Source: a virus. Taken from it: DNA of 64,000 nt. The stretch is taken from positions 1 to 64,000 of the IMG/VR virus record IMGVR_UViG_3300010160_002125, one strand, 5' to 3'. Of the stretch, positions 5,070 to 56,225 are shown piece by piece. The position numbers and the translations under genes were made by a program. The first letter of the stretch is position 1; every line of letters starts with the position of its first letter. The notes below the pieces were generated by a model, which saw only the letters and a program-made list of their open reading frames with translations, did not search any database and was not told the origin of the DNA.

Positions 5070-5929
5070 TTTTTAAATACTTTCTGATATACTTGATCTT
5101 CTACTGCTAGAAATTTGGTAAACTCTTGATCGTTTAAATAGACCATCTCCATATTGAGTTTCTTTAATGCATCTTGGAACTCTGGATCTTTGATCACAAG
5201 AGCAATGGATGTTCGTAATCGATCAACTAGTTCAGGCGCCAGGTCTTTTGGAGCAACAATACCTCTGTAGATCTTTCGATCAGTTATGGTATGTAATATC
5301 TTTATTTTACCTGCGGCAACAAAAGCCGATACTTCTGCGGTAGTGGTAACTCCAGCATCAATTTGTCCGCCTAGTACTGCTACTATCTCAGGAGCAGTTC
5401 CTGGATACGGAATACGATTAAACTTGATGTTAGTTTTGTTTTCAAATGTGCTGGTATTCAACTCACCCATCAGTCCCGATGTACCAATAGATATAACTCC
5501 TGGATTCTTTTTAGCACTGGCCACTAGATCATCAACTGTATTGAACGCACCGTCTGCACGAACAAAGATAACCATAGGATCTGCATTGATCATGGCTAAT
5601 GGTGTTACATCTCTGTAGGTATGTGTAGTAGTACCCACATGTGGCCCTAACACTAGATCAGTGCCTACCACCAACAATGTATACCCGTCTGGCTTCTGGC
5701 TGATTAGATAGTTTAATCCAATAGTACCTTGCGCTCCTGTCTTGTTGACTACAAGTATGCCTTTGGTCAGTTGTTTTTGCAGATTCTTTGCAAATGTTCT
5801 GGCCAATACATCTGTGCCACCACCTGCTGGATAAGGCACAATTAGTTCAATTGGTTTGTCGGGATATGCTTGTGCAAATACCGACGTTGATAATGCGACT
5901 GCTATCGCAACAAGTGTTTTCTTAATCAT
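5066..5929 (-). CDS. Bug/TctC-family periplasmic solute-binding protein, 287 aa
   Basis: Start ATG 5929 overlaps the upstream TGA (ATGA) with GGGGA just before it; a reading from 5941 would add MGNC. The signal peptide is clear (MIKKTLVAIAVALSTSVFAQ, cut before AYPDKP). The mature start PDKPIELIVPYPAGGGTDV and a later NKTGAQGTIG...QKPDGYTLL are signatures of tripartite-tricarboxylate-transporter receptors, which bind carboxylates in the periplasm. Compared with the usual length of about 320 residues, a piece around the vPT..E.G segment after HTITDR seems missing. Metabolic genes of this family are common in Burkholderiales; one in a phage operon between LRW-tail genes suggests transfer from a host. 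Confidence 0.9.
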   Translation of the reverse strand: MIKKTLVAIAVALSTSVFAQAYPDKPIELIVPYPAGGGTDVLARTFAKNLQKQLTKGILVVNKTGAQGTIGLNYLISQKPDGYTLLVVGTDLVLGPHVGTTTHTYRDVTPLAMINADPMVIFVRADGAFNTVDDLVASAKKNPGVISIGTSGLMGELNTSTFENKTNIKFNRIPYPGTAPEIVAVLGGQIDAGVTTTAEVSAFVAAGKIKILHTITDRKIYRGIVAPKDLAPELVDRLRTSIALVIKDPEFQDALKKLNMEMVYLNDQEFTKFLAVEDQVYQKVFKK

Positions 5930-6189
5930 ACAGTTCCCCATCTTAAAATAAACCAGTTAGCATCTCTGCTATCTTCAAATATAAAATCACGGCCATTACG
6001 TTCGTAGGCTTTCTTGCAGTTGTCTTCTAGCCATGTAATAATATCCACAGCCTTATAAGCATCTCCCATAGTGGGTATCATAACACGACACCACCCCATG
6101 CCTTCAAGCATACCCCATAGTACTTCACGGTCGATATCCTGTGCCATTTGATTGCCGGCCCGATTGATCATTTCCTCTTCTATATTCAT
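5926..6189 (-). CDS. LRW-tail family protein, 87 aa
   Basis: Ends DSRDANWFILRWGTV, the family tail. The preceding ICRV-like segment is WCRVMIPTMGDAYKAVDIITW. ATGA overlaps on both sides tie it to the Bug gene and the gene at 6186. Confidence 0.75.
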   Translation of the reverse strand: MNIEEEMINRAGNQMAQDIDREVLWGMLEGMGWCRVMIPTMGDAYKAVDIITWLEDNCKKAYERNGRDFIFEDSRDANWFILRWGTV

Positions 6190-14650: not shown

Positions 14651-15394
14651 ATGATCGGAATTATAGGATACGGCATGGTGGGCAAGGCCGTAGAATACGG
14701 GTTCTCTAAAACAACCTGTATTATTTCAGACCCACAGTACAACACAACTACAGTTAAAGACGTAGTAGCCGCAAATCCAGAAGCTATCTTTGTATGTGTA
14801 CCTACACCAACAGATGAAACAAACTATGCTGTACTTAAACAAGTTCTTACCAATATTAAAAATGCACAGTATACAGGTATAACTGTAGTCAAAAGCACAA
14901 TATTACCGCAATACTTAGAAGTATTTGATGTAGTATACAATCCTGAGTTTCTTTCTAGGGCTACCAGCCTAGAGGACTTTGTAAACCCGCCCTATGTTGT
15001 TATAGGCGGAAATAAAGCACCACAGGTCTTAGACATTTATCGCAAATACTCTACAGTAGACACTACTAATGCTTTTTTAGTTGACATCCCCACGGCCTGT
15101 ATGGTTAAATACACTATGAATAGCTTTTATGCTTTGAAGGTGATATTTATGAACGGTATGTACGATGTTGCTGAACAAATGGGTGCAGATTGGACAAATG
15201 CAACTGCAATATTAGCCAAACACCCGTGGATGGGGTCGAATCATTATCAAGTACCCGGCACAGACGGAGAAAGAGGATTCGGCGGACCGTGTTTACCAAA
15301 AGATACCAAAGCACTGGCTAGCACATACGAGCTACCACTTTTAACCAAAGTGATAGAGTTGAATAACAAATATAGAAACATTAAGGAAAGATAA
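14651..15394 (+). CDS. UDP-glucose/GDP-mannose dehydrogenase-like protein (short form), 247 aa
   Basis: Rossmann start IGIIGYGMVGKAVEYGF (G6-x-G8-x2-G11), then VPTPTD (51-55), KSTILP (81-86), NPEFL (97-101), the K153 and N157 region, and the catalytic cysteine motif GFGGPCLPKD (C214). These enzymes oxidise an NDP-sugar at C6 to the uronic acid. It is only 247 aa, lacking the usual C-terminal UDP-binding domain of 400-450 aa enzymes; phage short forms of this kind exist. AGGA lies before the ATG, and its stop overlaps the next start. Confidence 0.85.
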   Translation: MIGIIGYGMVGKAVEYGFSKTTCIISDPQYNTTTVKDVVAANPEAIFVCVPTPTDETNYAVLKQVLTNIKNAQYTGITVVKSTILPQYLEVFDVVYNPEFLSRATSLEDFVNPPYVVIGGNKAPQVLDIYRKYSTVDTTNAFLVDIPTACMVKYTMNSFYALKVIFMNGMYDVAEQMGADWTNATAILAKHPWMGSNHYQVPGTDGERGFGGPCLPKDTKALASTYELPLLTKVIELNNKYRNIKER

Positions 15395-16500
15395 TGGTAA
15401 TTGACCTAAACGTAACTAGTACTTGCAATCTAGCATGTACCTATTGCTCAGAAGGATTTGAATGCGGACTCAGTACGCAATTTGAAGAAAACACTTCCGT
15501 GACTCTAGAAAATATTGAAGAGTTTATGAGCAAGTTTAGTGACCCTAAACGAGACATTTACTTTTGGGGTGGCGAACCTTTTGTTAATTGGGAATTCTGT
15601 CGCGGTGTGATGGAAAAGTATATTGACAATCCTAACTATAACTTTTTCTTTTATACCAACGGTGTTTATCTAAAGAAGTATATGAAAGAGCTAGTACGTT
15701 TCCATCAATCCATGCCAGGCAGACTTAAAATACAGGTTAGCTATGACGGCAAACCAGTTAACGATATCACACGCATTGACAAGACAGGCAACCCAAGTAG
15801 CAGTTTGGTTAAATCAAATTATCTTGCAGCCAAGCAAGCTGGTCTAGCAGTTAAAATGAAATCAGTATTAACTGCTGAACACTTTCATCTAATCTACGAA
15901 GCTTTCTTAGATGTTATTACCCTAGACGAAAACTATTTTCCAACACCAGATATGTACAGTCATTTGACTGAGGAAGAGTTCATGCCTAGACTGGCAGTGC
16001 TCAACGAAGGGCTAGCCAAGATTGCCAAGTACATTTATCTAAACAAACTGCCTCCAGAAAAGTTTGGTTGGTTCACACAAAGTCGTGCCCTATGTGCTAG
16101 TGGTATTAACTATGTGTCAGTGGACCTCAACGGCGACATTAGTCCATGCCATGGTTGTATGTACAAAGAAAGTCATGCACACGTAATGGGTAATATTCTT
16201 AAGGCGCCGGACATTGATGCGTTGATTGCAGAGAAAACAGCAATGTATAGAGATGCACTAAAGAATCAACCACTTGATTGTATGAGTTGTGATGCACAGT
16301 TCTGTATGAAGTGTAATGCGGCTACATATGAAAAATCAGAGAAAGACACTTACTTAGAAAAGTGGAGTGATCATACTGCTAACTGGCAAGTGTGTAAGGT
16401 ATTCAAGTCTAACGAGATTGTACACCATGCATTACGTACAGCTCTAAAGTCATACAAGAAGCCAACTATTATTATCAAAGCGGAGCAATGTACAGTCTAA
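15394..16500 (+). CDS. radical SAM/SPASM-type maturase 1, 368 aa
   Basis: Canonical [4Fe-4S] motif C11-x3-C15-x2-C18 (TCNLACTYCSE), SAM-contacting FWGGEPFVNW (about 58-67), YTNG strand end, and a C-terminal cysteine set (CASG, SPCHGC, DCMSCDAQFCMKCN) typical of SPASM/twitch auxiliary clusters. SPASM proteins commonly modify peptides or proteins (thioether links, oxidations). It leads the radical SAM genes that precede four Cys-rich fibre genes. Substrate is not known. Confidence 0.9.
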   Translation: MVIDLNVTSTCNLACTYCSEGFECGLSTQFEENTSVTLENIEEFMSKFSDPKRDIYFWGGEPFVNWEFCRGVMEKYIDNPNYNFFFYTNGVYLKKYMKELVRFHQSMPGRLKIQVSYDGKPVNDITRIDKTGNPSSSLVKSNYLAAKQAGLAVKMKSVLTAEHFHLIYEAFLDVITLDENYFPTPDMYSHLTEEEFMPRLAVLNEGLAKIAKYIYLNKLPPEKFGWFTQSRALCASGINYVSVDLNGDISPCHGCMYKESHAHVMGNILKAPDIDALIAEKTAMYRDALKNQPLDCMSCDAQFCMKCNAATYEKSEKDTYLEKWSDHTANWQVCKVFKSNEIVHHALRTALKSYKKPTIIIKAEQCTV

Positions 16501-16501
16501 T

Positions 16502-17626
16502 ATGTTTACACTAGAGATATCAGTAACAGAAAAATGTAACCTTGGGTGTCCATATTGTTACGTGGCCAACCGTCCCACATGGATGGAACCTGAGACTTTT
16601 GATAATGCGATGCCCGAGCTTTATAATCTAATGAAGCGTAGCAACGACAGCGAGTTTCACGTTAGCTTCTTTGGTGGAGAGCCGTTACTTAATTGGGATT
16701 TAATCACCTACGCTGTACCAAAGCTAACAGCAGACCCTAAGTGCAAAGGCATTAACATTATTACTAATCTAACAATGATTGATGCTGATAAAGCCAAATA
16801 TCTAAAAGAACACGGAGTCGGAGTCAGTTGGTCATTTGACGGCATGAGTTCTAATACTACTCGTCCGTTATTACCTTTGTTAGAAAACACTAACCCAGAA
16901 ACTGGAGAATTGTTTGACGGCATCCTTGACATGTATAATCACAAGAAGGATATCATTACAGATTTAACTAACGGTTGTAAGGTAATGATATGGCCCGGCA
17001 ATACCAAAGACATGACAGAGAACTTTGAGTTCTTGTTAAGTTGGGGAATTGAACATCCAGACTTTTCTATTGTACGTGATGATGTATGGACAGAAGATGA
17101 CCTGCATGAGTATCGTAGAGAACTAATTAGACTAACCGATTGTTATATTGCTAAACTAAAAGCAGGAATACCTTGTTCAGTTGGATTCCTACGTTTATCT
17201 ATCTTAGACATCTTGTACGGATTGGTCAAAGGTAAACGCCCGTTTGGTTGCTTTGCCGGAACGCACGGCGGAGTATTAATGAGCAGTGGTGAGTTTTATC
17301 CTTGTGCTCGATTTGCATCTAAGAAGATTATGAAGATGGACAGTGACTATGACTTCAAGTACTATCAAGACATATTCAACCCACAGAACTTTGACAAGTG
17401 CGAGCCTTGCCAATTAAAACAAGTTTGTAATGCAGGATGTACATACAGTCAAGTTACCAACGGCAACAAGCCCTTAGACAGTATCTGCGAAATCTTTCAT
17501 ATCACTAATGAGCAGGCCATGCGTGTTGTAGAAGAATGTAAAGATGTCCCAGTATTCCAAGATTTAATACTACACTACTTACAAAATGTTGGTGTAGAGA
17601 ATGAAGGCGTGGAGTGTAGAAACTAA
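16502..17626 (+). CDS. radical SAM/SPASM-type maturase 2, 374 aa
   Basis: C12-x3-C16-x2-C19 (KCNLGCPYCYV), FFGGEPLLNW, and a textbook SPASM tail: CFAGTHGGVLMSSGEFYPCAR and then CEPCQLKQVCNAGC ... C. The second is a paralog of the first in layout, with separate substrates or steps possible. It sits one base after the previous stop and shares its stop with the next start. Confidence 0.9.
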   Translation: MFTLEISVTEKCNLGCPYCYVANRPTWMEPETFDNAMPELYNLMKRSNDSEFHVSFFGGEPLLNWDLITYAVPKLTADPKCKGINIITNLTMIDADKAKYLKEHGVGVSWSFDGMSSNTTRPLLPLLENTNPETGELFDGILDMYNHKKDIITDLTNGCKVMIWPGNTKDMTENFEFLLSWGIEHPDFSIVRDDVWTEDDLHEYRRELIRLTDCYIAKLKAGIPCSVGFLRLSILDILYGLVKGKRPFGCFAGTHGGVLMSSGEFYPCARFASKKIMKMDSDYDFKYYQDIFNPQNFDKCEPCQLKQVCNAGCTYSQVTNGNKPLDSICEIFHITNEQAMRVVEECKDVPVFQDLILHYLQNVGVENEGVECRN

Positions 17627-17919
17627 TGAAAAGCATATTAAAGATCCCAGTTAAAGTTGAAATGGCTCCGGTAGAGCATGTTTCAGACCGTGTATTATCT
17701 GTAGACGAATTATCATTGCAAATTGAAGAAGCTCGCAAGGGCAAAGCTAAAGTTGATAGTCAGTATGTTGGATACGATGATCTTAATAGAGGTCACCTCT
17801 ATGACTATAAGTTTGACTACGGACAATTTCTATCTAGTATGAGTCATATTATTAGAGAAGCCAAGAGTCGTCCGCAAGACAACCGATATAAAAATTCACA
17901 TGAGATGATTATCCAATGA
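17626..17919 (+). CDS. hypothetical protein between radical SAM genes, 97 aa
   Basis: Lies with ATG/TAATG overlap between two radical SAM genes, so it is probably their partner. Contains LSVDELSLQIEEARKGKAK (helical) and Tyr/Asp-rich DDLNRGHLYDYKFDYGQF. It could be a peptide-binding adaptor or a substrate; no recognition-element fold is evident by eye. Confidence 0.7.
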   Translation: MKSILKIPVKVEMAPVEHVSDRVLSVDELSLQIEEARKGKAKVDSQYVGYDDLNRGHLYDYKFDYGQFLSSMSHIIREAKSRPQDNRYKNSHEMIIQ

Positions 17920-18788
17920 TACCTATTGTTAGTGAATTTTATGTAGGAGATAAAACAGACAAACCTGCACCTGCAGGATCGGCTGTTAATGTTCTATATT
18001 TTACTAACAAGTGTAATTTGGCCTGTACCTATTGCTATGAAGACTTGCCAGGCCGACCGCCACAAATATTAACCAAAGAAGACATTGTCAAACACGTTGA
18101 TGCTATCCTTGCTCGAGAAGATCCTAAAAGCCAAACACTAATTGTATTATTTGGCGGCGAGCCTACACTTGAATGGGAGAATGTTTGCTTTGCTATGGAC
18201 TATGCTTTTAGTAAAAAACGTAATGTACATTTTAACATGACCACTAACGGTATCAAATACCTAAGTCAAAACTTCATAGATGAAACTATGAACAACTTCT
18301 TTTATAAAAAAGGGCTGTTATCTATCGACGTTAGTTTTGACGGAGTTGGTAACAAAGATCGAGTGTTTCATAATGGTACAGATAGTACAAAGAGCATGAT
18401 TGAAGTGTTTACTAATTTAGTAAAAAATAAGTTTAGATATCGTATGCGTTATACTATTCATAAGTTTAACATAAACTATGTGTATAAGGATATGACTAAG
18501 TTAATCAAAACGTTTAATCCAGAGCGTATGATTACTAGTGTAGCTTGGGATACCCTATCACCTAAGGATATTGAGAAGCTATCTGAGATTAAAAATCAGC
18601 TAAGAAATGACTGGATAAATAAAGCAGTATCTGTGCCTGTATGCGAATTATTTTGCGACATGTGCAGTGGATGCGGTGAACGCAAAGAGTTAAAGACATA
18701 TTTTACTAACGAGGGTAACGTAACAACCTATGGAAATTACGAAAACTCTCCAAAATTTCATGATTTTAAGGACAAAGAAATAAAATGA
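17916..18788 (+). CDS. radical SAM protein 3, 290 aa
   Basis: C34-x3-C38-x2-C41 (KCNLACTYCYE), LFGGEPTLEW, MTTNG, and a short cysteine cluster near the end (CELFCDMCSGCGERK) that could hold an auxiliary Fe-S cluster. Shorter than the first two. ATGA overlaps on both sides. Confidence 0.9.
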   Translation: MIPIVSEFYVGDKTDKPAPAGSAVNVLYFTNKCNLACTYCYEDLPGRPPQILTKEDIVKHVDAILAREDPKSQTLIVLFGGEPTLEWENVCFAMDYAFSKKRNVHFNMTTNGIKYLSQNFIDETMNNFFYKKGLLSIDVSFDGVGNKDRVFHNGTDSTKSMIEVFTNLVKNKFRYRMRYTIHKFNINYVYKDMTKLIKTFNPERMITSVAWDTLSPKDIEKLSEIKNQLRNDWINKAVSVPVCELFCDMCSGCGERKELKTYFTNEGNVTTYGNYENSPKFHDFKDKEIK

Positions 18789-19183
18789 CACAGATGACTA
18801 TAAATGAAAAATTAGAAAAGATTCTAGAGATTATCAAACTTATGGAAGTTGAGGATGATCCGGGCGTTTCTACAATTATGTTAGATGGCTTCATCCTATC
18901 TATGAACATTATTAAAGAATTATCTGAACAGACTGAACCTGCTAACACTCTTGATATTTCTAAACAGATAGAAATGGTTACGTCAATTTTAGGTATTTCA
19001 TTACATGATCTAGTTATGCAAATTATCAAAGAAATGAATGAGAATCAAGAGATGCCTGATAAAGAAGTTGATAAAAACACTTTAGATTTTATTACATCGG
19101 CGGAGAATCTTGACGACTATGATAAGTTTCTAGCACAAGCTAAAGCCAAAGAAGATTTAGACTTTTTGTCAAAAGCAATTTAA
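18785..19183 (+). CDS. hypothetical acidic helical protein, 132 aa
   Basis: Acidic protein, mainly helices (KLEKILEIIKLMEVEDD; LVMQIIKEMNENQEM). Directly before the four Cys-rich fibre genes and after a radical SAM gene; a chaperone or adaptor for the fibre substrates is possible. A good ribosome site (GGAGATAGGAG) follows its stop for the next gene. Confidence 0.75.
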   Translation: MTQMTINEKLEKILEIIKLMEVEDDPGVSTIMLDGFILSMNIIKELSEQTEPANTLDISKQIEMVTSILGISLHDLVMQIIKEMNENQEMPDKEVDKNTLDFITSAENLDDYDKFLAQAKAKEDLDFLSKAI

Positions 19184-19196
19184 GGAGATAGGAGCG

Positions 19197-19769
19197 ATGA
19201 CGTTACCAACATTAGCGGCGGGCATAGTAAAAGACATATATGGCACGGATGCTTCTGATGCTGTAACACACGGGCTTACACCTGTTAATAATACTAACAA
19301 AACATCTGGTGCTATATTTTATAATATAGCACTAAAAGCCAATGCAGAAAGAGTGAGACGTGGTAAGTCGTCAGTTAATATCCCAACAGATTATTTTACT
19401 GGAAAGTTATATGCTAGTAAAATTCAAGAAATAAAAACAAATGTAGAAGTTACAGGCCCTGCAGAAACTCAAGCATACAATACCAACTATGGCGGCGGAT
19501 CCAATAGCGGCAATCCGCCAGCAGTGACCACATTCAGTCAACTGCCTGCACCAAGCGGAGCATCTGATTTTGTAAAAGGTGCAAAAATAACCAGTGCTAT
19601 TGTTAATGCATTGATTAATGAAATTAATGCCGCTGGTAACACATGTACTTGTAACTGCAACTATTGCACCTGCAACTGCAACTATTGCACCTGCAACTGC
19701 AACTACTCATGTACTTGTAATTGCAACTACAGTGATGAACAACTTAAAAGTCAAGTGGAGTACATATAA
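19197..19769 (+). CDS. Cys-heptad fibre-like protein A, 190 aa
   Basis: Fibre-like body with RVRRGKSSVNIPTDYFTGKL and an ITSAIVNALINEINAAG helix common in phage structural proteins, then four copies of C-T-C-N-C-N-Y (12 cysteines, the fourth copy separated by Ser), then SDEQLKSQVEYI. The SDE..K..VEYI ending matches the opening of the S74 intramolecular chaperone (SDxRLKxNIxxI), but the gene stops there. The Cys tail could bind metal, form disulfides or be modified by the neighbouring radical SAM enzymes. Stop and next start abut (TAAATG). Confidence 0.85.
   Translation: MTLPTLAAGIVKDIYGTDASDAVTHGLTPVNNTNKTSGAIFYNIALKANAERVRRGKSSVNIPTDYFTGKLYASKIQEIKTNVEVTGPAETQAYNTNYGGGSNSGNPPAVTTFSQLPAPSGASDFVKGAKITSAIVNALINEINAAGNTCTCNCNYCTCNCNYCTCNCNYSCTCNCNYSDEQLKSQVEYI
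19644..19730 (+). repeat. Cys-heptad repeat coding block (protein A)
   Basis: Four 21-base units encoding C-T-C-N-C-N-Y, three contiguous (19644-19706) and a fourth after one codon (19710-19730). Codons differ between units (TGT/TGC, AAC/AAT) while the residues do not, so the protein sequence is being kept. Confidence 0.9.
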
Positions 19770-20483
19770 ATGGCATTACCAAGTTTTCCAATTAGGGCAT
19801 TCGCCTCGGGCGGTAGTCATGCTCCTAACGGAAATCCAGCGTACCGAGCGCAAAATGGAATTATGTCATCTGTATACGGCACTACTACCGGTAAAACAGT
19901 CAGTTATAATATAGCCGAAGTAGCATCTACTGATTTGATGCGAGAAAACAAATTACTAGATATAGCAAACAAGGCAGTATTGGAACGAACACGCCGAGGC
20001 GGATCAGCAATACAGATACCAGGTGGATATTTTAGTGGACAAATTTATGGTTCAAGAGTTCAAGATATTGTTAATGTATTACAAGTATCCGGACCCGATA
20101 ATGAACAAGCATATAACGGTACAGGGCAGGGAACTAATTCTCCCTGGGGATATTATCAAACTGGTAATAATGTAACATATGATAATTATGGAAATCCTAT
20201 TAACAATCCAGTATATTCAGCAGTAGCCGATCCAACCGCAGTAACTTACCCAAAAGCAGCCGCACCATCGGTTGGGGTATCATTCTCTAAGGGTGATCAA
20301 ATATCATCGTTGAATATCAATACATTAATTAGAACAATTAATAATGCTGGCAATGTATGTACTTGTAACTGCAACTACTGCACTTGCAACTGCAACTATT
20401 GCACCTGTAATTGTAACTATGGCTGTACCTGTAACTGCAATTACAGTGACGAAAGAGTTAAGGCAGAAGTGGAGTACATGTAA
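19770..20483 (+). CDS. Cys-heptad fibre-like protein B, 237 aa
   Basis: Longest of the four. N-terminal extension, then NIAEVASTDLMRENKLLDIA, IQIPGGYFSGQIYGSRVQDI, a Gly/Asn/Tyr-rich middle (YYQTGNNVTYDNYGNPINN), KGDQISSLNINTLIRTINNAG, the four-heptad tail and SDERVKAEVEYM. It shares long stretches with protein D and its Tyr/Asn middle with protein C, a mosaic pattern. Confidence 0.85.
   Translation: MALPSFPIRAFASGGSHAPNGNPAYRAQNGIMSSVYGTTTGKTVSYNIAEVASTDLMRENKLLDIANKAVLERTRRGGSAIQIPGGYFSGQIYGSRVQDIVNVLQVSGPDNEQAYNGTGQGTNSPWGYYQTGNNVTYDNYGNPINNPVYSAVADPTAVTYPKAAAPSVGVSFSKGDQISSLNINTLIRTINNAGNVCTCNCNYCTCNCNYCTCNCNYGCTCNCNYSDERVKAEVEYM
20358..20444 (+). repeat. Cys-heptad repeat coding block (protein B)
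   Basis: Three contiguous C-T-C-N-C-N-Y units (20358-20420), a Gly codon, then the fourth (20424-20444). Synonymous codon differences again exceed amino-acid change. Confidence 0.9.
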
Positions 20484-21128
20484 ATGGCATCCTTAACAGC
20501 AAGCCCATACGGATATAATGCATCAAACGCTGTATCGCCTATTGGCGGCTATGTTGGTGCTGGAATGTTAATAAGTGGATCGCACATCCGTGTTATAGCA
20601 GAAGAGGCAATCGCTGAGCGAGTTCGTAGAGGCCAAGCCAATATTACTATTCCTCCAGGATATTATTCAGGAACAATTTCAGCTTCACGTCTTCAAGACG
20701 TTATTACAGTAGCATCAGTAGCAGGACCTGCTCAAACACAAGCATATAACGGAGCATGGCAAGGATATAACAGCTCTAACGGCTATTACGATACTGGAGG
20801 TCGTACACCAGTATATGACAATTATGGTAATCTGATTAGATACGATGTAGTCTATGCGTCATTACCGGCTCCAGAAATTGTTTACTACTATCAGCAAGGC
20901 GCACCAAATTTTTATGTATCATTTTCGAGTTTAGTTGGATCAACTATTAGTGCTAGTCATATAAACGAATTAATTAGTGGAATTAATGCGGCTAAAGCCG
21001 TTTGTACTTGTAACTGTAACTATTGCACCTGTAACTGTAACTATTGCACCTGTAACTGTAACTATGGCTGTACCTGTAACTGCAACTATAGTGATGAAAG
21101 AGTGAAGGCAGAGGTGGAGTACATGTAA
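20484..21128 (+). CDS. Cys-heptad fibre-like protein C, 214 aa
   Basis: Body with VIAEEAIAERVRRGQANITI and PPGYYSGTISASRLQDVITV, a TYDNYGN-like middle (PVYDNYGNLIRYDVV), the ISASHINELISGINAAK helix, four heptads and SDERVKAEVEYM, identical at the end to protein B. No gap to either neighbour. Confidence 0.85.
   Translation: MASLTASPYGYNASNAVSPIGGYVGAGMLISGSHIRVIAEEAIAERVRRGQANITIPPGYYSGTISASRLQDVITVASVAGPAQTQAYNGAWQGYNSSNGYYDTGGRTPVYDNYGNLIRYDVVYASLPAPEIVYYYQQGAPNFYVSFSSLVGSTISASHINELISGINAAKAVCTCNCNYCTCNCNYCTCNCNYGCTCNCNYSDERVKAEVEYM
21003..21089 (+). repeat. Cys-heptad repeat coding block (protein C)
   Basis: Units at 21003-21065 (three) and 21069-21089 (fourth, after a Gly codon). Here most Asn codons before Cys pair with TGT/TGC alternation different from protein A. 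Confidence 0.9.
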
Positions 21129-21761
21129 ATGTCGTTACCTACGATATCAGGACTAACTACATCAGTATACGGCACTAATTCTAGTAACGCTGTAGGTTAT
21201 AATATAGCCGAAGTAGCATCCACTGATTTGATGCGAGAAAACAAATTAATAGAGATTGCCAATAATGCTGTATCGGAACGAACACGGCGCGGTCAATCGG
21301 CAATACAGATACCAGGTGGATATTTTAGCGGAAGAATTTATGGCTCACGGGTACAAGATATTATTAATGTAGTACAAGTAGCTGGACCGGCGGCAACACA
21401 AGCATATAATGGCGCAGGACAGGGAACTAACAGTAGCGATGGAAGAGGCCCAATCATTGGATATACGCCCGGCCGCTTTAGACTCCCTATATACGGTCCT
21501 TTGGTACAACCAGAAGTAGTAACTTACCCACAAACTGCGGCGCCATCATTTGGGGTATCATTCTCTAAGGGAGATCAAATATCATCGTTGAATATTAACA
21601 CATTAATTAGAACAATTAATAATGCTGGTGCAGCCTGCACCTGTAACTGCAACTACTGCACCTGTAACTGCAACTACTGCACCTGTAATTGTAACTATGC
21701 ATGTACCTGTAACTGCAATTATAGTGATGAACAAGTTAAAACTAACATAGAATACATATAA
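21129..21761 (+). CDS. Cys-heptad fibre-like protein D, 210 aa
   Basis: Shares NIAEVASTDLMRENKL, IQIPGGYFSGRIYGSRVQDI and KGDQISSLNINTLIRTINNAG with protein B, but has a different middle (GPIIGYTPGRFRLPIYGPL). Four heptads with an Ala spacer, then SDEQVKTNIEYI. The stop TAA shares its last A with the ATG of the S74-like gene, so translation is coupled. Confidence 0.85.
   Translation: MSLPTISGLTTSVYGTNSSNAVGYNIAEVASTDLMRENKLIEIANNAVSERTRRGQSAIQIPGGYFSGRIYGSRVQDIINVVQVAGPAATQAYNGAGQGTNSSDGRGPIIGYTPGRFRLPIYGPLVQPEVVTYPQTAAPSFGVSFSKGDQISSLNINTLIRTINNAGAACTCNCNYCTCNCNYCTCNCNYACTCNCNYSDEQVKTNIEYI
21636..21722 (+). repeat. Cys-heptad repeat coding block (protein D)
   Basis: Units at 21636-21698 (three) and 21702-21722 (fourth, after an Ala codon). 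Confidence 0.9.
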
Positions 21762-22027
21762 TGAGTTTAGAAAAAATAAAACAGCTTCGACCCGCAGAGC
21801 ATATATACACAGACAGCACAAAAGGTGATACTGTACGTAAAACTATGAGCTGTATGGCACAGAATATAAACGAGATTTGGCCAATAGAAAAATACACTAT
21901 TTTGGAAAAAGACAAGGACGGTTACTTTATTGTTGCCAATCCGCATCAGTTAATTTTTCCATTGATCAAAGCAGTACAAGAATTATCTGAGGAAATTGAA
22001 AGGTTAAAAAATGAAAGAACTAAGTGA
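21761..22027 (+). CDS. stand-alone S74-like chaperone domain, 88 aa
   Basis: Reads as the remainder of a peptidase S74/intramolecular chaperone domain: SLEKIKQLRPAEHIY matches the (I)e.alekiklLrpv.f.y step, MSCMAQNINEIWP the v.GfiAQEveevfPe step, KDGYFIVANPHQLIFPLIKA the gyk.VdY..Lv.lLveA step, and VQELSEEIERLKNE the C-terminal coiled coil. In the usual protein this follows SDERLKxNI directly. Here the four upstream proteins end with that opening strand and this gene supplies the rest, so it may act in trans as a fibre-folding chaperone. Recognition is by eye. Confidence 0.65.
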   Translation: MSLEKIKQLRPAEHIYTDSTKGDTVRKTMSCMAQNINEIWPIEKYTILEKDKDGYFIVANPHQLIFPLIKAVQELSEEIERLKNERTK

Positions 22028-22421
22028 ATATAAAGAAGTTGAAGGTATTCCAGCTAGCACTTATGCGGGCAAAGCAGCCAAGGCAGTTAAAACTAAAGCT
22101 CGCGGAATCCTAGGAGACGATTTATTAATTTTTAAATTAATAGATTTTGTTTCTTTTATGTTGCTTAATAATAAGTTTGCCAACAAAGGGATTTTTATCA
22201 CCGATGATAACAAAGAAGAGTGTTATATCAAAATAATTGAAGCAGGCGACGAATCTTTAATTACAGACCTTGAAAGATATATTTCTTTAAAAGATGATAT
22301 TAAAGCTATCGAGGCTAATAAAGCAGAGTACCAGGAAATTATCAAAAAATTGCAATTACTGCCTGATCAAAACGACGAAAATGCTGTAAATAAGATAGTA
22401 GAAGACTATCTAAGGAGATAA
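22011..22421 (+). CDS. hypothetical protein, 136 aa
   Basis: Overlaps the S74-like gene by 17 bases. Basic Ala/Lys start (AGKAAKAVKTKARG), then helices (LKDDIKAIEANKAEYQEII) that may form a coiled coil. Possibly a fibre or chaperone partner; unknown. Confidence 0.75.
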   Translation: MKELSEYKEVEGIPASTYAGKAAKAVKTKARGILGDDLLIFKLIDFVSFMLLNNKFANKGIFITDDNKEECYIKIIEAGDESLITDLERYISLKDDIKAIEANKAEYQEIIKKLQLLPDQNDENAVNKIVEDYLRR

Positions 22422-24300: not shown

Positions 24301-25207
24301 TACCAAACAATACGATCTAGTGTTTGCCACATCATTTGAAACAGTACACGGAGTCACCGGCCATGTATTTGAAATGATTGAATACTGTTTTATGTGTAGA
24401 CGCAACGGTATTAATGCGGCTATAGCTTTATTAGACGGTACAGATATTAGTCTAGTAATAGGACTACTAACTTCAAAGTATAATTTTAATCAAGAAGAAG
24501 TTGCAGACCTAACAGCAAATATAATAGTGTTTACACACCCTAAAATTATATTAGCCAACAATTTTTGCATAGTTGACGGTTCACCTCGAGTCAATGGCTG
24601 TACCATTTACGCAGACAATGTATTTTTATTAAGATGCTACGACGGAGAACTAGATTTCTTTTCTAACAATAAGTCTATTAAACGTACTCATCTACTTCAA
24701 GATTTTTCAATGTACCCTGAACGATACGAGCATTTAAACATTGAAGTAATCGACTATAATAAAAAATTACTATGGGATAGGTATCATAAACCTAAGACAG
24801 TTAAAACTAATACAGCTATGTTTTATATGATGAATAGATGTAAAGCAAGACCTGTTGATGAAGTTGCAGGGTATATTGCTAAACACACATTTGACCATTA
24901 TCTTATAATAACAGATATTCCAGAACGATATCAAAGTTTAAAATCTAATCAAGTATCAATTGAAGTTGTGCCAGTTGACAATTTATTTGAAAAGTTTGAC
25001 ACATACATTTATACTCCAGTGACCAAAGTAGATTGCAGTCCTAGATTTATGGTTGAGTGTGCGGCATTTGGTAAAGATATCATTTACGAAATTGACTATT
25101 TAGATCCTGGAATTTTAGCAAGACAACGAGGAATAGAAGCCGGAGTAGAAACGCTGTTGTTAAAAGATAATGACCCCTTCATCAAATACGTAAATAGATG
25201 TCTATGA
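24284..25207 (+). CDS. GT-B-like glycosyltransferase, 307 aa
   Basis: The C-terminal half (FDTYIYTPVTKVDCSPRFMV, ECAAFGKDIIYEID) resembles the C-domain of GT-B glycosyltransferases, where a D-x-x-P-R-x-x-x-E-A-x-x-F-G-K pattern binds the nucleotide sugar. N-terminus has FATSFETVHGVTGHVFEM. Acceptor unknown; the operon makes sugar nucleotides. Confidence 0.6.
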   Translation: MTTILNTKQYDLVFATSFETVHGVTGHVFEMIEYCFMCRRNGINAAIALLDGTDISLVIGLLTSKYNFNQEEVADLTANIIVFTHPKIILANNFCIVDGSPRVNGCTIYADNVFLLRCYDGELDFFSNNKSIKRTHLLQDFSMYPERYEHLNIEVIDYNKKLLWDRYHKPKTVKTNTAMFYMMNRCKARPVDEVAGYIAKHTFDHYLIITDIPERYQSLKSNQVSIEVVPVDNLFEKFDTYIYTPVTKVDCSPRFMVECAAFGKDIIYEIDYLDPGILARQRGIEAGVETLLLKDNDPFIKYVNRCL

Positions 25208-26280
25208 GTCAAACAATAATTCCCCGTCCAAGAAATAACGCCCTTAATGAAATGAGCGTTCAGGGCATCGTGATGGATACAATTACACCGCAATGTAATC
25301 GAGCCAAACTTAACACAGGTACATTTTGCAACTATGACTGTGAGTTTTGCTATTATACAGATCTTCTGGATGTAAAAACTCCGTTTGAAGTAGTCAAAGA
25401 GCGAGCAGACTATCTTAGAGATTACGGCATTACCGAAGTAGATCTAAGCGGCGGCGAAAGCTCTGTTAGTCCAGATTGGTTTAGAATATTAGACTATTGC
25501 AATGAAAACTTTGAGCATGTTAGTTGTCTTAGCCACGGCGGCCGTTTTAGTAATATAGAATTTTTAAAAGAAAGTCAAGACCACGGCTTGAAAGAAATAC
25601 TGTTTAGTCTGCACGGTGCTACTAGTGAAGCGCACGACACAATCACACGCCGCAAGGGATCTTTTAACAGAATAGTCCAAGCTATTAAAAATGCCAAAGA
25701 ATTAGGCATCGTTGTTAGAATTAATTCTACTGTCTATTACAAAAATTATTTCCAGTTGGCCAATGAATATGCTGATCTAATCAATGAACTTAATCCCTTA
25801 GAAGTAAACTTTATCACACTAAATTATTGGGAAGGCGTCAGGATTGAAAAAGAAAATGTCACCTATGCAGACATGACTGAACAAATAAAACGGTGTATAG
25901 ATCGTTTGAATAAAAAAATAGTGATTAATGTTCGATTTGTGCCTTACTGTTATATGGAAGGCTATGAGAAGTATGTGTGCGATCAGTATCAGCACATTTA
26001 TGATCCGTGGGACTGGAATAGGGCAATGTTAACAGACGAGTTTGATCCCGACATAGACACTACAAAAACTTATTCAGAAGAAGAAAAACTAGCGTTTGCT
26101 CATAAACAATGTGCCAGTCATAGGAATAGATTTTATAGAAAAGAGTTGAGTTGTTTAAAATGCAAGTATTTTTATATATGCGATGGCATTGAAAATGAAA
26201 TAGCAGGTACTCCAGTTTATCCAGTTGACGGAGAAAAGATCAAAGAAGTTACTTTCTTTAGAAAAGATCATTTCAAATGA
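25198..26280 (+). CDS. radical SAM protein 4, 360 aa
   Basis: C44-x3-C48-x2-C51 (FCNYDCEFCYYTD), LSGGESSVSP (GGES in place of GGEP), LSLHG-like SLHGATSEAHD, and a C-terminal cysteine set (CASHRNRFYRKELSCLKCKY, then ICDG). An alternative start at 25204 would give the ATGA overlap usual in this operon. Substrate unknown; next to a glycosyltransferase. Confidence 0.88.
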   Translation: MSMSQTIIPRPRNNALNEMSVQGIVMDTITPQCNRAKLNTGTFCNYDCEFCYYTDLLDVKTPFEVVKERADYLRDYGITEVDLSGGESSVSPDWFRILDYCNENFEHVSCLSHGGRFSNIEFLKESQDHGLKEILFSLHGATSEAHDTITRRKGSFNRIVQAIKNAKELGIVVRINSTVYYKNYFQLANEYADLINELNPLEVNFITLNYWEGVRIEKENVTYADMTEQIKRCIDRLNKKIVINVRFVPYCYMEGYEKYVCDQYQHIYDPWDWNRAMLTDEFDPDIDTTKTYSEEEKLAFAHKQCASHRNRFYRKELSCLKCKYFYICDGIENEIAGTPVYPVDGEKIKEVTFFRKDHFK

Positions 26281-26966
26281 AACTGTCTATACTAATACTA
26301 ACACACAATCGTCCAAAATTATTTAACCGTTGCTTAGAAAGTGTATTAGATCAAATAACTCCAGACATAGAAATTCTTGTCAACAATGACAGTTGTGATA
26401 TTGAAGAAATTGTTCATCCACAGGTAAAATACTATTACCATAATCCAAACAGTCTATGTGAAATATATAAATTTTTATTAGAGTTAGCACAAGGAGAATA
26501 TGTTTATTATCTAGAAGATGATGACTATTTGACTAAAGATTTCCTATCAATCAATTTGGATGCAGATTTAATTACAGGTAACTATTACCCTACTTATAAA
26601 ACAACTGATATACTAATCAGCATGACCATGTACAAAGATGCACACATGAATAGCCAACAGTTTATAGCTAATCTTAACACTGAAAATCTACAACTATCTC
26701 AGCACATATACAAACGTAGTCATATAGAAGATTTTGATTTTCCAATGGATAGTAACATACACAATGATATTAGATTAACACTACACGCGGCCTCAAAAGC
26801 TAAAACTATACATACTTTGAATAAAGTATTCTTTTATCAAACTACTGACGGTAGAGACAATATTTCTTTTCCTGAGTCAATCAGCAGGGTAAATATAACG
26901 AAATCCCTAAACTTTTTGGAAAACTATGAAATATTCGGTACAACACCACGTACAACAAGATCCTGA
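26277..26966 (+). CDS. family 2 (GT-A) glycosyltransferase, 229 aa
   Basis: Classic start MKLSILILTHNRPKLFNRCL with LESVLDQ, then EILVNNDSCD and GEYVYYLEDDDYL, the DxD-type metal site at about residues 83-86. Transfers a sugar from a nucleotide donor. Overlaps the next radical SAM gene by 41 bases. Confidence 0.85.
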   Translation: MKLSILILTHNRPKLFNRCLESVLDQITPDIEILVNNDSCDIEEIVHPQVKYYYHNPNSLCEIYKFLLELAQGEYVYYLEDDDYLTKDFLSINLDADLITGNYYPTYKTTDILISMTMYKDAHMNSQQFIANLNTENLQLSQHIYKRSHIEDFDFPMDSNIHNDIRLTLHAASKAKTIHTLNKVFFYQTTDGRDNISFPESISRVNITKSLNFLENYEIFGTTPRTTRS

Positions 26967-27825
26967 TCACATCAATGTGCATTGGGATACTCTTACCATT
27001 TGTCAGCTTAACTGTACCTATTGTTATGCTAGGAATACCTACGGTAAAGAATGGGGTAAACTATCAAGCAAAGAAACTATTGACGGAGTAATTGAAGCAC
27101 TTAATAGAAGTAGCTTGCCGTTCAATTTGGGACTGTTAGGTGGCGAACCCACCCTTGGCCCGCACTATTATTATGTGCTTGATGAAATATCTAAATTAGA
27201 AAAGTTTAAATGGGTATATGTTGTTACCAATGCCGAGAAAGACTTTACTAGCCATCCTCACTACGATAAAGTAGCATTTCTTTTTAGTTATCATCCGGCA
27301 GATTGCACAAACAGAGATCGATTTGTTGACAATATGAAACTGATGATCAGTCGAGGATACCCTTGCAAAATAAATGTAATACTGCACCACGGCAAACAGT
27401 ATTGGCCGCTGATCAAAGAAATGTTTGATATTTGTGCCAACATACCAGGACTGAAAGTACATCCGCATTTCTTATACGGCAACAAAATGGACAAGTTGTT
27501 TAACTACCGAAAAGACTTTTGGGAATATTTTAGCTTCCTAAAAGACTTTGAAAGAGATCTTCAGTACGATGACGATGTGTTCAATGACTATGAAGTCTAC
27601 AGCCAAAAGCTAACTGACTTTTACGGTTGGGATTGTTATAACAATAACTACGAAGTTGATGTTCGTGGCAATGTAGTACAGTTCTGCATGAATGAACTAG
27701 GCGGCATAAGTTTATTAAAAGATCCTGATTTCTTTAAACGATTAGAAAAAACTGTCCCTATTACTTGTCCTCATAAACAATGTAACTGCGACGGGCTATT
27801 AAAACAGTTAAAGGTTAAAAAATGA
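26926..27825 (+). CDS. radical SAM protein 5, 299 aa
   Basis: C26-x3-C30-x2-C33 (ICQLNCTYCYARN), LLGGEPTLGP, and VVTNAE. C-terminal cysteines (QFCMNELGG; CPHKQCNCDG) could ligate a second cluster. ATGA overlap with radical SAM protein 6. Confidence 0.88.
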   Translation: MKYSVQHHVQQDPDHINVHWDTLTICQLNCTYCYARNTYGKEWGKLSSKETIDGVIEALNRSSLPFNLGLLGGEPTLGPHYYYVLDEISKLEKFKWVYVVTNAEKDFTSHPHYDKVAFLFSYHPADCTNRDRFVDNMKLMISRGYPCKINVILHHGKQYWPLIKEMFDICANIPGLKVHPHFLYGNKMDKLFNYRKDFWEYFSFLKDFERDLQYDDDVFNDYEVYSQKLTDFYGWDCYNNNYEVDVRGNVVQFCMNELGGISLLKDPDFFKRLEKTVPITCPHKQCNCDGLLKQLKVKK

Positions 27826-28571
27826 AAGTAGAATGGGAAATAACTTTAAAATGTAATTACAGTTGTTTCTATTGTACTAACCTTGACCAGACTTTGAATG
27901 TAGTTATGGACAAAGATATTATTAGGGCGTTTATTAAAGATTTAGGAGAAACATACCCCGGAGTTGAAATATTTGTATTTGGTGGAGAACCATTTATACA
28001 TCCGCACATCGAATTTATTATTGAATGCTTTAATGAATTTTCAGTACCGTTTGTAATACAAACAAACTTTAGTAAAAAATCAGTAGCTGTAATGAAAAGA
28101 ATCACTGAAAAATTTACCATACAAATATCTATACATCCTACAGAAGTTAGATTAGACCAGTTAGATGAGTTATTTAAAACACAAGCAAATATACGAGTAA
28201 TTGATGTAATGTATACAGGCAAAGAAGCTATACAATATTATTTTAAAGTCAAAGAACTTGTAGAGTGTGATCATTTGTTCCTAACACCAATTACTGACTT
28301 TGGTGATGGCAAGTCAAATGATATACTAAAAGAATATACTAACCTACGATTAAATTCTCCCTATTCTAAATTTATTAACTTTGAAGATATTGTAAGACAA
28401 GGCGAACAAAGGTCTATTGTTTGGTTAAATGATAAGTTTAGCCCTAGAGGCAAACCTTGTTTGTACAATGGAACTTATTTTTTATATGGGCCAAACTTAG
28501 AACTTTATAACTGTTGCTATAGAGTAAAACATAATGGCATATGCGAGCACGATAAATGTTTCCTGATGTAG
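27822..28571 (+). CDS. radical SAM protein 6, 249 aa
   Basis: C11-x3-C15-x2-C18 (KCNYSCFYCTN), FVFGGEPFIHP, IQTNFS. Short core-only enzyme with a Cys-rich end (LYNCCYRVKHNGICEHDKC). Stop overlaps the next gene by 16 bases. Confidence 0.85.
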   Translation: MKVEWEITLKCNYSCFYCTNLDQTLNVVMDKDIIRAFIKDLGETYPGVEIFVFGGEPFIHPHIEFIIECFNEFSVPFVIQTNFSKKSVAVMKRITEKFTIQISIHPTEVRLDQLDELFKTQANIRVIDVMYTGKEAIQYYFKVKELVECDHLFLTPITDFGDGKSNDILKEYTNLRLNSPYSKFINFEDIVRQGEQRSIVWLNDKFSPRGKPCLYNGTYFLYGPNLELYNCCYRVKHNGICEHDKCFLM

Positions 28572-29008
28572 ACATACAAAAACGTTTGATAGCATATTAT
28601 CAAACAACTACCAATCAATCTGCTAACACAGTATTGGCATATATCAAGCTGAATAGACGTGTAGTAGACATGCATTTAGGTAGGCATACATTAAAAGAAA
28701 TGATGTTAAATTATAGAACATTATATAATCCAAAAAAGAAAGATAAGATTGTATCAGATTTTAAAAAATATATAATAGACAAAGAAACACATCATAAAAG
28801 TGATTTAGCAATAGCTTTTAACATTATTAAACATGTGAATCTTACCGCTAATGAAGAAGAACAAATTATTAATTTTATGTTTGATCGATTGCAATCAAGT
28901 TTAAAAAATACTAATTTATCAAAAGCAGAAAGCGTTTATTTTTTTAAAAAACAATTGATTATGGAGTACGTTGAAACAAACGTTATAACTAGGAAAATTA
29001 AAACATGA
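28556..29008 (+). CDS. hypothetical helical protein, 150 aa
   Basis: Entirely helical and Lys/Asn-rich, with no recognised motif (KRLIAYYQTTTNQSANTVL; LSKAESVYFFKKQLIMEY). Overlaps the radical SAM gene upstream and shares ATGA with the next gene; a partner of the enzymes is likely. Confidence 0.7.
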   Translation: MFPDVDIQKRLIAYYQTTTNQSANTVLAYIKLNRRVVDMHLGRHTLKEMMLNYRTLYNPKKKDKIVSDFKKYIIDKETHHKSDLAIAFNIIKHVNLTANEEEQIINFMFDRLQSSLKNTNLSKAESVYFFKKQLIMEYVETNVITRKIKT

Positions 29009-29811
29009 GATACTTACTAGCAGGTGCATTTTCTAGATCAATAGCACTGATAAAATTTTTAGGTCAATATAACGGAACAGCCGAGCTTGTTGTCTATGAC
29101 GGTATAAACAAATGTAGATGGAATGGCGGACGAATTAATAGAGACATCGGATACACTGATGGCCTAATTAATTATTATTACAGTAAGGGAATAAAAATTG
29201 CCCTTACTATGACCAATCATAAGATTAACTTAGATGATGAAACAGGTAATCACCTCCTTGAGAAATTTCATAAAGAAGGAAACTGTATCATATTAATTAA
29301 TGACGAACTTAGAGCTTATATTCGAAAAAACTTTCCCAAGTACAAATTAATATTCAGTATTACAGGAATGGGTCTATTAAACATTCCCTTACAAGACAGC
29401 GATATTGCTTTTTATAAAGATTTAGAAAGCAAGTATGATTGGATAGTTCCTAGATTTGAACACATTTTTGATCCTCGAGCAGTTGAACTTGATCGAACCA
29501 AATGGGAAGTAATGGTCAACGATACTTGCGTATGGGGATGTAAATATTTTGACGAACATTTTAAAGCTATCGCAGATGAAAATACCGCGGGCAGGCCGTA
29601 TAGTGTAGAAGTAGAAGAATGTTGGCTTCCAAAATTCAATCCGGATATTCCTAGCAAATATAACTGTATGGATATTGATGAAGAGCATCTTAATAAACTA
29701 ATGGGCCTTGGTGTACAAAGTTTTAAAATCACTGGCAGAGAGATGAAAGACGATCAATATTTTGTAGAATTATTTAGATATGTAAAAGAACGCCATCATG
29801 CAGTTGTATAA
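29005..29811 (+). CDS. U32/UbiU-like TIM-barrel protein, 268 aa
   Basis: GGRINRDIGYTDGLINYYYS, LTMTNHKI, a ND-x-C-x3-C pair (VNDTCVWGCKYFDEH), and LMGLGVQSFKITGREM near the end resemble the U32 peptidase/UbiU-UbiV fold (barrel with G-[VI]-x-x-F-K-I-x-G-R and a cysteine pair holding Fe-S). UbiU/V-type proteins use Fe-S for oxygen-independent hydroxylation. The match is by short motifs only. Confidence 0.5.
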   Translation: MRYLLAGAFSRSIALIKFLGQYNGTAELVVYDGINKCRWNGGRINRDIGYTDGLINYYYSKGIKIALTMTNHKINLDDETGNHLLEKFHKEGNCIILINDELRAYIRKNFPKYKLIFSITGMGLLNIPLQDSDIAFYKDLESKYDWIVPRFEHIFDPRAVELDRTKWEVMVNDTCVWGCKYFDEHFKAIADENTAGRPYSVEVEECWLPKFNPDIPSKYNCMDIDEEHLNKLMGLGVQSFKITGREMKDDQYFVELFRYVKERHHAVV

Positions 29812-30637
29812 CGTTAACACAGTAGAGTATCTACAGAGTACAGAATTTAAAAATATTGTAACTTTTATAAACAATATTAGGAACCAGCGTGAAATTAATT
29901 TATTAACTAGGCATCCAAGTTTTCAAGTCAACCCTCGTTGCCAAAAGGATCAAGACATCAGTTTTTCTTTTGTTGAAAGAAATACTCCGTTTTTTGACAT
30001 GCCCTGCGAAACTCTACTGCATAAAGACGGCAATGGTTGGATTGATATTATTGAATGGCATTACCATCTCAACTGTTTTCATAAAGGCATGTATCATAGA
30101 TTAGAATGGAGTAAACTTCCTAATCATAATCTGGATAAGTTCCTACATGAAATCTATCAAGATTGGATCTCTAATACAGACTTTCAACAATTAATGATAC
30201 AATCAGAAGAAGCATTTAACTTATATGATTTATTAGATTATCATAAGAATTTTATATACAATGAAAATTTTGAACCTATCAGTTTAGATGATGTTAGAGA
30301 ATTGTTTGATGCATTGGTTGCTGAGGGTGTATTTTTAAATAAAGACGGCGACCTTTATCAAATCTATGAAAATTTAACGATTGAACAAGCTAACACCAAT
30401 GTCAAGCGCAAATACTATAATGGACAAATAAACAAAATTGACGAGCTACATATCCGCTCAACTTTTACAGTTAAAACTTTACCAATTCTACAAAAATTAA
30501 CAACTAAACTTAACTTTGTTCCAAACAACATCAACGGATTTAGTGGTATTTGGCTAGTACAAAAACTTGCAGGACAGATTTGTTTTGTACCTCAAAATCT
30601 TGTATTTTATAATAAAAGAGTGTATAATCAACTATGA
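29798..30637 (+). CDS. hypothetical protein, 279 aa
   Basis: No family recognised. Contains HLNCFHKGMYHRLEW, an acidic middle (ISLDDVRELFDALVAEG) like a winged-helix segment, and a C-terminal WLVQKLAGQICFVPQN. Positioned between the barrel protein and a radical SAM gene. Confidence 0.7.
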   Translation: MQLYNVNTVEYLQSTEFKNIVTFINNIRNQREINLLTRHPSFQVNPRCQKDQDISFSFVERNTPFFDMPCETLLHKDGNGWIDIIEWHYHLNCFHKGMYHRLEWSKLPNHNLDKFLHEIYQDWISNTDFQQLMIQSEEAFNLYDLLDYHKNFIYNENFEPISLDDVRELFDALVAEGVFLNKDGDLYQIYENLTIEQANTNVKRKYYNGQINKIDELHIRSTFTVKTLPILQKLTTKLNFVPNNINGFSGIWLVQKLAGQICFVPQNLVFYNKRVYNQL

Positions 30638-55964: not shown

Positions 55965-56225
55965 ATGAATCCACATTTTAAAGCACAAGGCATGACTCCA
56001 ACAGCCGCCTTGGCCGCAAGAGCCAAAGCACAAGCAACAGCCGCAAGAGTAAGCGCAGTCGTTAAAGCACAAAGAGAAGCTGCCGGACAACCCTCAACTA
56101 GACAAGCAAAGATGGAAGCCGCAAAGGCACGTAGAGCCAGTATTCGCACAATGAAACCAAATGACTTTCGTGCAAAGCTAGCTGGTGATTGGGCAAACGC
56201 AAAACTTAACTGGCCTAAAAAATGA
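55965..56225 (+). CDS. small basic Ala-rich protein, 86 aa
   Basis: Ala, Lys and Arg dominate (AALAARAKAQATAARVSAVV; AKARRASIRTMKPNDF). It would bind DNA or an acidic partner, as internal head or scaffold proteins do. ATGA overlap with the protease gene. Confidence 0.65.
   Translation: MNPHFKAQGMTPTAALAARAKAQATAARVSAVVKAQREAAGQPSTRQAKMEAAKARRASIRTMKPNDFRAKLAGDWANAKLNWPKK

Follow-up and report, generated by a model that had tools for sequence, protein, structure and literature searches.

Radical-SAM enzymes of three families accompany cysteine-heptad fibre-like proteins in divergent phages and may modify their tips

A cluster of enzyme and heptad genes

The stretch analysed here, 64,000 nucleotides long and hereafter called the window, covers positions 1 to 64,000 of the IMG/VR virus record IMGVR_UViG_3300010160_002125. 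It contains three genes for radical S-adenosylmethionine (radical-SAM) enzymes upstream of four tandem genes whose products carry the cysteine-rich heptad CTCNCNY. All genes of the cluster lie on the plus strand. The extent given in an initial annotation was exact, as the cluster runs from 15394, the start of the first enzyme open reading frame (ORF), to 21761, where the fourth heptad ORF terminates. The enzymes are designated A (15394-16500, 368 amino acids (aa)), B (16502-17626, 374 aa) and C (17916-18788, 290 aa). All three combine a CX3CX2C motif with a match above the Pfam Radical_SAM cut-off (PF04055, E=1.2e-11, 3.7e-13 and 9e-14, respectively) and thus belong to the radical-SAM superfamily, as had been annotated. 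The distinction between two clear cysteine sets and a short one also held. In A and B the CX3CX2C motif and seven C-terminal SPASM cysteines are invariant among 20 homologues each, whereas C has an invariant CX3CX2C and only a short C-terminal CX3CX2CX2C in place of the seven-Cys SPASM set. The enzymes had been placed directly before the heptad genes. Their upstream position was correct but strict adjacency was not, because two small ORFs intervene: a conserved protein of the B/C cassette (17626-17919, 97 aa), with homologues in many heptad loci, and a conserved protein of 132 aa (18785-19183), whose homologues in many loci are located immediately 5' of the heptad gene.

The heptad proteins 1 to 4 are encoded at 19197-19769 (190 aa), 19770-20483 (237 aa), 20484-21128 (214 aa) and 21129-21761 (210 aa). 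Each contains exactly 12 Cys, arranged in three CTCNCNY units, a spacer residue (S/G/A) and a fourth unit. This agrees with the annotated 48 Cys in four proteins that each end in four units and amounts to 16 exact units. Behind the heptads the proteins terminate in SDE(Q/R)xK...EY; in protein 1 the units are followed by SDEQLKSQVEYI. Protein 1 matched phrog_26958 (E=8e-12), a PHROG without assigned function. An AlphaFold model of protein 4 had pLDDT (predicted local distance difference test) values of mostly 58-91 in the N-terminal part and 35-38 in the heptads. The low values tell only that the unmodified monomer has no predicted fold in the heptads. A PDB fold search with the heptad-protein model gave no significant match.

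Selection on the heptad

Pairwise comparison of the heptad region (29 codons) among the four window copies revealed 6-13 synonymous and 0-1 non-synonymous differences, the latter affecting the spacer residue only. For 18 heptad copies from 13 loci, the mean was 12.5 synonymous versus 1.6 non-synonymous codon differences. This bears out the annotated conservation of the cysteines against drifting codons: synonymous changes are common and the residues nearly fixed. Such drift with almost no residue change indicates purifying selection rather than a slipping DNA repeat. The latter explanation, in which the heptads are a slipped-strand artefact and their Cys content is selected merely as a by-product of the repeat, can point to the 21-bp tandem repeats present in the window and to the work of Timms et al. 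(PMC2853527), where the version of Campylobacter phage CP220 was handled as a DNA repeat. It is contradicted by the codon data and by the persistence of the pattern over 459 units in 58 non-redundant proteins across all loci, and we regard slippage as refuted, with practically no residual probability.

Apart from the Cys at positions 1, 3 and 5, which define the search pattern, position 6 was N/D in 440, position 4 was N/D/Q in 441 and position 7 was Y/F/H in 445 of the 459 units. Successive units mostly lie 7 or 8 residues apart (391 of 401 listed spacings). The extreme member, in L017 (5265-6305; L numbers denote loci), has 90 Cys in 346 aa and about 25-28 units. In another protein (L036, 4351-5139) Cys also occur throughout the N-terminal domain, amounting to 33 in 262 aa.

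Co-occurrence of heptads and enzymes

A degenerate-codon heptad pattern matched 44 IMG/VR contig stretches; together with a protein search this resulted in 43 records that were searched as a whole. PF04055 genes were found in 39 of these 43 heptad-bearing virus records, usually 7-11 in each. The four apparent cases of a heptad without enzyme (L004, L005, L043, L066) are explained by contig truncation, as the heptad gene reaches the contig end or lies no more than about 1.6 kb from it. In relatives with the same EWKVxC heptads, B follows about 1.5-1.7 kb beyond the heptads (L186, L189-L191, L208), and on a contig of a metagenome-assembled genome (MAG) with heptads of the EWKVxC type (L077) it follows after 4.5 kb (E=7e-132). 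Heptad records with enough flanking sequence are never without the enzymes. The initial annotation had considered that heptad proteins elsewhere might lack radical-SAM neighbours; the enzymes turned out not to be missing beside them. The pairing of heptads and radical-SAM enzymes thus holds across divergent phages.

A, B and C represent three orthologous families, mostly with one member each per heptad locus and in variable gene order. Seen from the enzyme side, a heptad ORF is present in 47 of the 50 loci that encode a nearly complete relative of B (at least 36% identity). Those without one are a contig end (L178), an 8.6-kb fragment (L115) and a locus with a truncated heptad gene (L172). L172 and L103 were rejected as enzyme cassettes without heptad, since their heptad gene starts normally and is cut to 71 aa. 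In L103 (13781-13996) the truncation precedes the heptads and reflects either a deletion or an assembly collapse; the same cassette with a full version of the heptad protein is found in L092/L174.

Among the A relatives that are more than 5% divergent, a dense CxC-rich ORF occurs in the locus in 49 of 59 cases, a count whose base rate includes the Cys tips themselves, and it is the next gene in 26 of 59. The other ten include loci with looser Cys-rich neighbours (L140, L145, L150, L156, L157) and short or cut contigs (L096, L115). In L155 and L158 no Cys-rich neighbour was found in the locus.

In bacterial and archaeal genome collections heptads are very rare. Four real stretches (L074-L077) were found in three MAGs, assigned to Thermoplasmata, an uncultured bacterium and Chloroflexi, with radical-SAM genes nearby in all of them. 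These contigs may be viral. One further match (L078) was discarded as a chance match that lies out of frame inside another ORF, and a match at a contig end (L055) was not classed as heptad.

Campylobacter phages

A screen of 50,697 annotated phage records identified the heptad in 15, A in 16, B in 15 and C in 15 records. The same 15 records carry all four; all are Campylobacter phages of the genus Firehammervirus and count as one lineage. The sixteenth A record, the fecal MT837768, is bacterial; the fragment carries sbcCD-like genes, lacks a Cys tip and hence is no exception. The heptad was detected in these phages by blastn of the phage collection. A tblastn search of the same collection with the heptad protein gave no match, the low-complexity filter probably masking the motif.

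In CP220 the heptad gene is located at 161.8 kb and A 2.2 kb downstream of it (164.8 kb), while B (16.4 kb) and C (84.0 kb) are unlinked to it. The heptad gene corresponds to gp140 in CP220, to gp10 of contig 3 in IBB_35 and to CP21_105 in CP21. Tree reconstruction placed the 16.4-kb gene in the B clade (100/100) and the 84.0-kb gene in the C clade (100/99). Since the enzymes are dispersed in these genomes, linkage alone does not explain the pairing. A 21-bp repeat and 11-12 radical-SAM genes of CP220 were described separately by Timms et al., who guessed a metabolic role (PMC2853527). The literature that we consulted never ties the heptad protein of CP220 and CPt10 to the radical-SAM genes of these phages.

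Relationships of the enzymes

The Pfam SPASM model (PF13186, cut-off 21.5 bits) scored A just under its cut-off (21.2 bits) and did not match B. TIGR04085 scored above cut-off in homologues of B (L018) and A (L002). The best NCBIfam model for each scanned A, B and C protein was the PapB ranthipeptide maturase (NF047865). The scores, 66.8, 130.2 and 88.0 bits for A, B and C of the window and at most 139.9 bits for the homologues, are all below the curated cut-off of 340 bits, which argues against membership in PapB. The next matches include SCIFF, QhpD-type and nif11-type maturases, all below their curated cut-offs, and models of anaerobic sulfatase maturases and cyclophane synthases score as well. 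The nearest solved structure to the A, B and C profiles is PDB 5wgg (E=2e-33 for B), which we take to be the SCIFF maturase CteB. Judged by sequence, the three enzymes constitute a new subfamily whose closest relatives are thioether-forming maturases; we do not assign them to PapB.

Four further radical-SAM genes of the window, at 25198, 26926, 27822 and 30634, are separate from A, B and C in trees. They are interspersed with glycosyltransferase-, epimerase- and 2-oxoglutarate-Fe(II) oxygenase-like genes (25198-31680), and synteny of their homologues is retained in many of the heptad phages. Alternatively, the radical-SAM enzymes might serve a pathway for glycans or the host surface that is encoded in the same variable region, their link to the heptads resulting from shared ancestry and module hitch-hiking. 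The four genes amid transferase, epimerase and nucleotide-sugar-like genes agree with such a pathway, as do the reported host-recognition clusters of T4-like pelagiphages, in which radical-SAM cassettes are combined with glycosyltransferases (PMC7029224). A, B and C, however, form clades apart from the 25198-31680 genes, resemble SPASM-type peptide maturases and stay with the heptads despite changing gene order, and the Cys tip directly adjoins the A relative in the 26 of 59 loci mentioned above. We consider this alternative improbable.

S74 chaperone and position of the heptads

In several homologues (L001, L006, L011, L020, L022, L036) a Peptidase_S74 domain (PF13884) was found above cut-off right after the last heptad, and full-length homologues thus end in this intramolecular chaperone behind the tip. 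In the window proteins, S74 is reduced to its SDExxK start (SDExxK..VEY). The remainder appears as a separate ORF of 88 aa (21761-22027, plus strand) that overlaps the stop of the fourth heptad gene. Its direct PF13884 match is below cut-off (E=0.016), but its profile matches the S74 parts of L001, L011, L020 and L036 and also free-standing homologues in L010, L019, L023, L025 and L129. The initial annotation described the heptad proteins as fibres. The S74 domains of the homologues support this description, and for the window proteins we infer it.

In T5 pb1, the S74 domain brings about trimerisation and cuts itself off at a conserved Ser, whereby the receptor-binding end becomes exposed (PMC4690869). 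As S74 directly follows the heptads, these should form the distal end of the mature trimeric fibre. We consider it rather probable that the modified tip is located distally, at the end of a fibre or spike in the virion.

A second class of cysteine-rich tips

Many A relatives without B or heptads are accompanied by a different Cys-rich tip protein (e.g. CICNSDCSCNLVCACHNDCGCNY), usually encoded by the next gene (among others in L123, L125-L127, L132, L137-L139, L143 and L147). These tips are mostly followed by SDxRLK and S74 as well. In 19 non-heptad tips, position +3 relative to Cys was occupied by N/D in 101 of 142 non-Cys cases versus 38% in shuffles, a level reached in 0 of 5000 shuffles that ignore the relatedness of the tips and their periodicity; positions +2 and +4 were depleted. 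Asn or Asp three residues after Cys is common to both tip classes. In the heptad the pairs C1-N4 and C3-N6 fit this rule and C5 does not.

Further tip variants were observed. A tip of C-H-S-N and C-H-S-D tetrads, with N/D at +3 of Cys, lies next to an A relative in L140 (11133-11636). In L136 (11802-12464) a CxCDxN tip is followed, in place of S74, by a domain that by eye is intein/Hint-like and ends in VSHNA. More distant B-like radical-SAM loci contain CxC-repeat proteins with 51 Cys (L212, 4990-5874) or 25-54 Cys (L213, 11401-12009 and 14448-15455), which possibly are further classes of modified Cys-rich substrate.

The alternating CxCxC pattern with small polar residues would also offer suitably placed ligands for a stack formed by three chains. 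The heptads might accordingly bind metal or Fe-S clusters through thiolates along a trimeric needle, by analogy with the iron-binding His of the T4 gp37 tip, with the radical-SAM enzymes being mere neighbours or having another target. S74 indicates a trimer, and the needle of T4 gp37 coordinates seven irons that are essential for its function (PMC6957217). A metal stack leaves unexplained, however, why A, B and C accompany the heptads everywhere, even unlinked as in CP220, and why A relatives are found beside a different Cys-rich tip. We consider it improbable.

Proposed maturation of the tip

We propose that the cluster is a phage-encoded maturation cassette for the tip of a trimeric fibre or spike. 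The heptad protein would consist of a variable N-terminal domain, a (CTCNCNY)n tip and, ancestrally, the S74 intramolecular chaperone. S74 would trimerise and cut itself off at SDxRLK directly after the heptads, which would leave the heptads distal. Once translated, the heptad segment would be modified by A and B, which are of SPASM type, and by the shorter radical-SAM enzyme C. That SPASM-type enzymes act on the Cys tips had already been suggested in the initial annotation; the co-occurrence and the thioether-forming nearest relatives support it, and the action itself we infer. We estimate the probability that A, B and C modify the fibre tips after translation at about 0.7.

Among the possible chemistries, one resembling that of PapB and CteB is the most likely, with a thioether from Cys to a non-alpha carbon of a nearby residue, probably the Asn/Asp at +3 (C1-N4 and C3-N6). 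The product would be a stapled, redox-stable tip, in which the third Cys is perhaps free for trimer contacts or metal. PapB forms Cys-Xn-Asp thioethers with n=0-6, three being preferred (PMC9413430). This tolerance makes a CX2[N/D] link plausible on chemical grounds; an Asn acceptor would be an extrapolation. That the product consists mainly of Cys thioethers to Asn/Asp is a tentative proposal, to which we give slightly less than even odds. The tip could instead be modified by cyclophane or C-C links at Tyr, epimerisation, conversion of Cys to formylglycine, or successive different reactions of A, B and C. SPASM enzymes catalyse many reactions, the enzymes also match the models of sulfatase maturases and cyclophane synthases, and position 7 is Tyr, Phe or His in 445 of the 459 units. 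On the other hand, the top sequence matches of each enzyme are thioether maturases, Cys is the only feature fixed in both tip classes, and N/D at +3 suits an acceptor rule for Cys. We regard modification of the tip other than by thioethers as rather unlikely.

Several observations weigh against tip modification by A, B and C. The PapB and similar matches are far under the curated cut-offs; the subfamily is therefore new and its reaction could differ. The known PapB acceptors are Asp/Glu, whereas the heptads mostly offer Asn, and the +3 statistic is weakened by the periodicity and relatedness noted above. No recognition element (RRE) of ribosomally synthesized and post-translationally modified peptides (RiPPs) was found in the enzymes, in which the radical-SAM domain begins directly. 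The 97-aa protein (17626-17919) is unsupported as an RRE, as its low-confidence AlphaFold model consists of three helices without strands and lacks signs of an RRE. Nor does the system conform to the definition of a RiPP pathway, with a short leader-bearing precursor, RRE guidance and proteolytic core release: the candidate substrates in the window are proteins of about 190-240 aa. The A relative in L113/L114 has no Cys-rich neighbour and is a true exception. Since numerous further radical-SAM genes and sugar genes are located in the region, some of the enzymes may serve another pathway. Furthermore, the heptad protein is not among the 11 listed CP220 virion gel bands (PMC2853527).

Other genes of the window

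The conserved downstream protein of 136 aa (22011-22421, plus strand) has 150 homologous ORFs and is a candidate fibre-assembly factor. Its homologues are also located 3' of non-heptad Cys tips in A loci (e.g. L125-L150). A protein encoded on the minus strand (5066-5941) resembles by eye a periplasmic binding protein of the Bug/TctC type and had no PHROG match; it would hint at a betaproteobacterial host. ORFs resembling transketolase halves (32290 and 34198) surround a tryptophan-halogenase-like ORF (32934) within 32290-34674, likewise by eye. A subtilisin-like protease (56222-57775) is related to the phage protease family phrog_3677 (E=3e-38).

Significance and comparison with known systems

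Taken together, the heptad phages may share a widespread viral system in which up to three dedicated radical-SAM enzymes turn self-cleaving trimeric fibre tips into points cross-linked by multiple thioethers or other C-H-derived bonds, with up to 90 Cys per protein (L017). The product would be a hardened tip that contacts the receptor or pierces the cell, and a second class (CxCNxD) would be processed by A-type enzymes alone. For this picture as a whole we see an even chance. So far, the known targets of radical-SAM cross-linking are small peptides and a small number of enzyme subunits. If correct, our interpretation describes a new type of viral structural modification, and a proven modification would be a new kind of virion chemistry. 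The hardened fibre tip would be unlike any known virion structure, and peptide chemistry would gain a new maturase family with repeat substrates. The many radical-SAM genes of Campylobacter phages, a puzzling feature on record since 2010 for which a metabolic role was guessed (PMC2853527), would also receive a function. Cultured phages, among them CP220, allow a direct test of the system. Searches of open-licence papers for radical-SAM enzymes in connection with virions, Cys-rich tail fibres, RiPPs or ranthipeptides yielded no link between them, and none of the papers found describes radical-SAM cross-linking of a virion component.

The 'repetitive region x' protein of CP220/CPt10 (phrog_26958) is a known member of the system, as it shares the heptad and the three enzyme families. 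It is a single protein of 534 aa with six perfect units and dispersed enzymes, whereas the window encodes four proteins and clustered enzymes. The S74 chaperone fibres K1F endosialidase and T5 pb1 have PF13884 and the SDxRLK start in common with the heptad homologues. S74 fibres are not known to be enzyme-modified or to carry a Cys tip, and the window differs from them also in the split chaperone. The needle tip of T4 gp37 likewise presents short in-register metal-binding motifs in a trimeric tip, but these contain His instead of Cys and are not accompanied by radical-SAM enzymes.

Among the enzymes, CteB (5wgg, 5why) is the nearest solved structure to A, B and C by sequence. It comprises 453 aa with the match beginning about 100 residues in, whereas A and B start at the radical-SAM domain, and the substrates differ. 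QhpD, which acts in quinohemoprotein amine dehydrogenase maturation and whose type is among the top NCBIfam matches of the A, B and C proteins, is a radical-SAM enzyme that cross-links Cys in a protein subunit instead of a small peptide. In contrast to the window system, it is a single non-viral enzyme with an enzyme subunit as substrate and without repeats. PapB/PapA (freyrasin) likewise combines a radical-SAM/SPASM enzyme with a Cys-rich substrate containing many regularly spaced Cys. There, a single enzyme acts on a leader-core peptide with a CX3D pattern; here, three enzymes, whose families score in the range of 64-140 bits against the 340-bit cut-off of the PapB model, would act on fibre-like proteins with a CX2[N/D] pattern.

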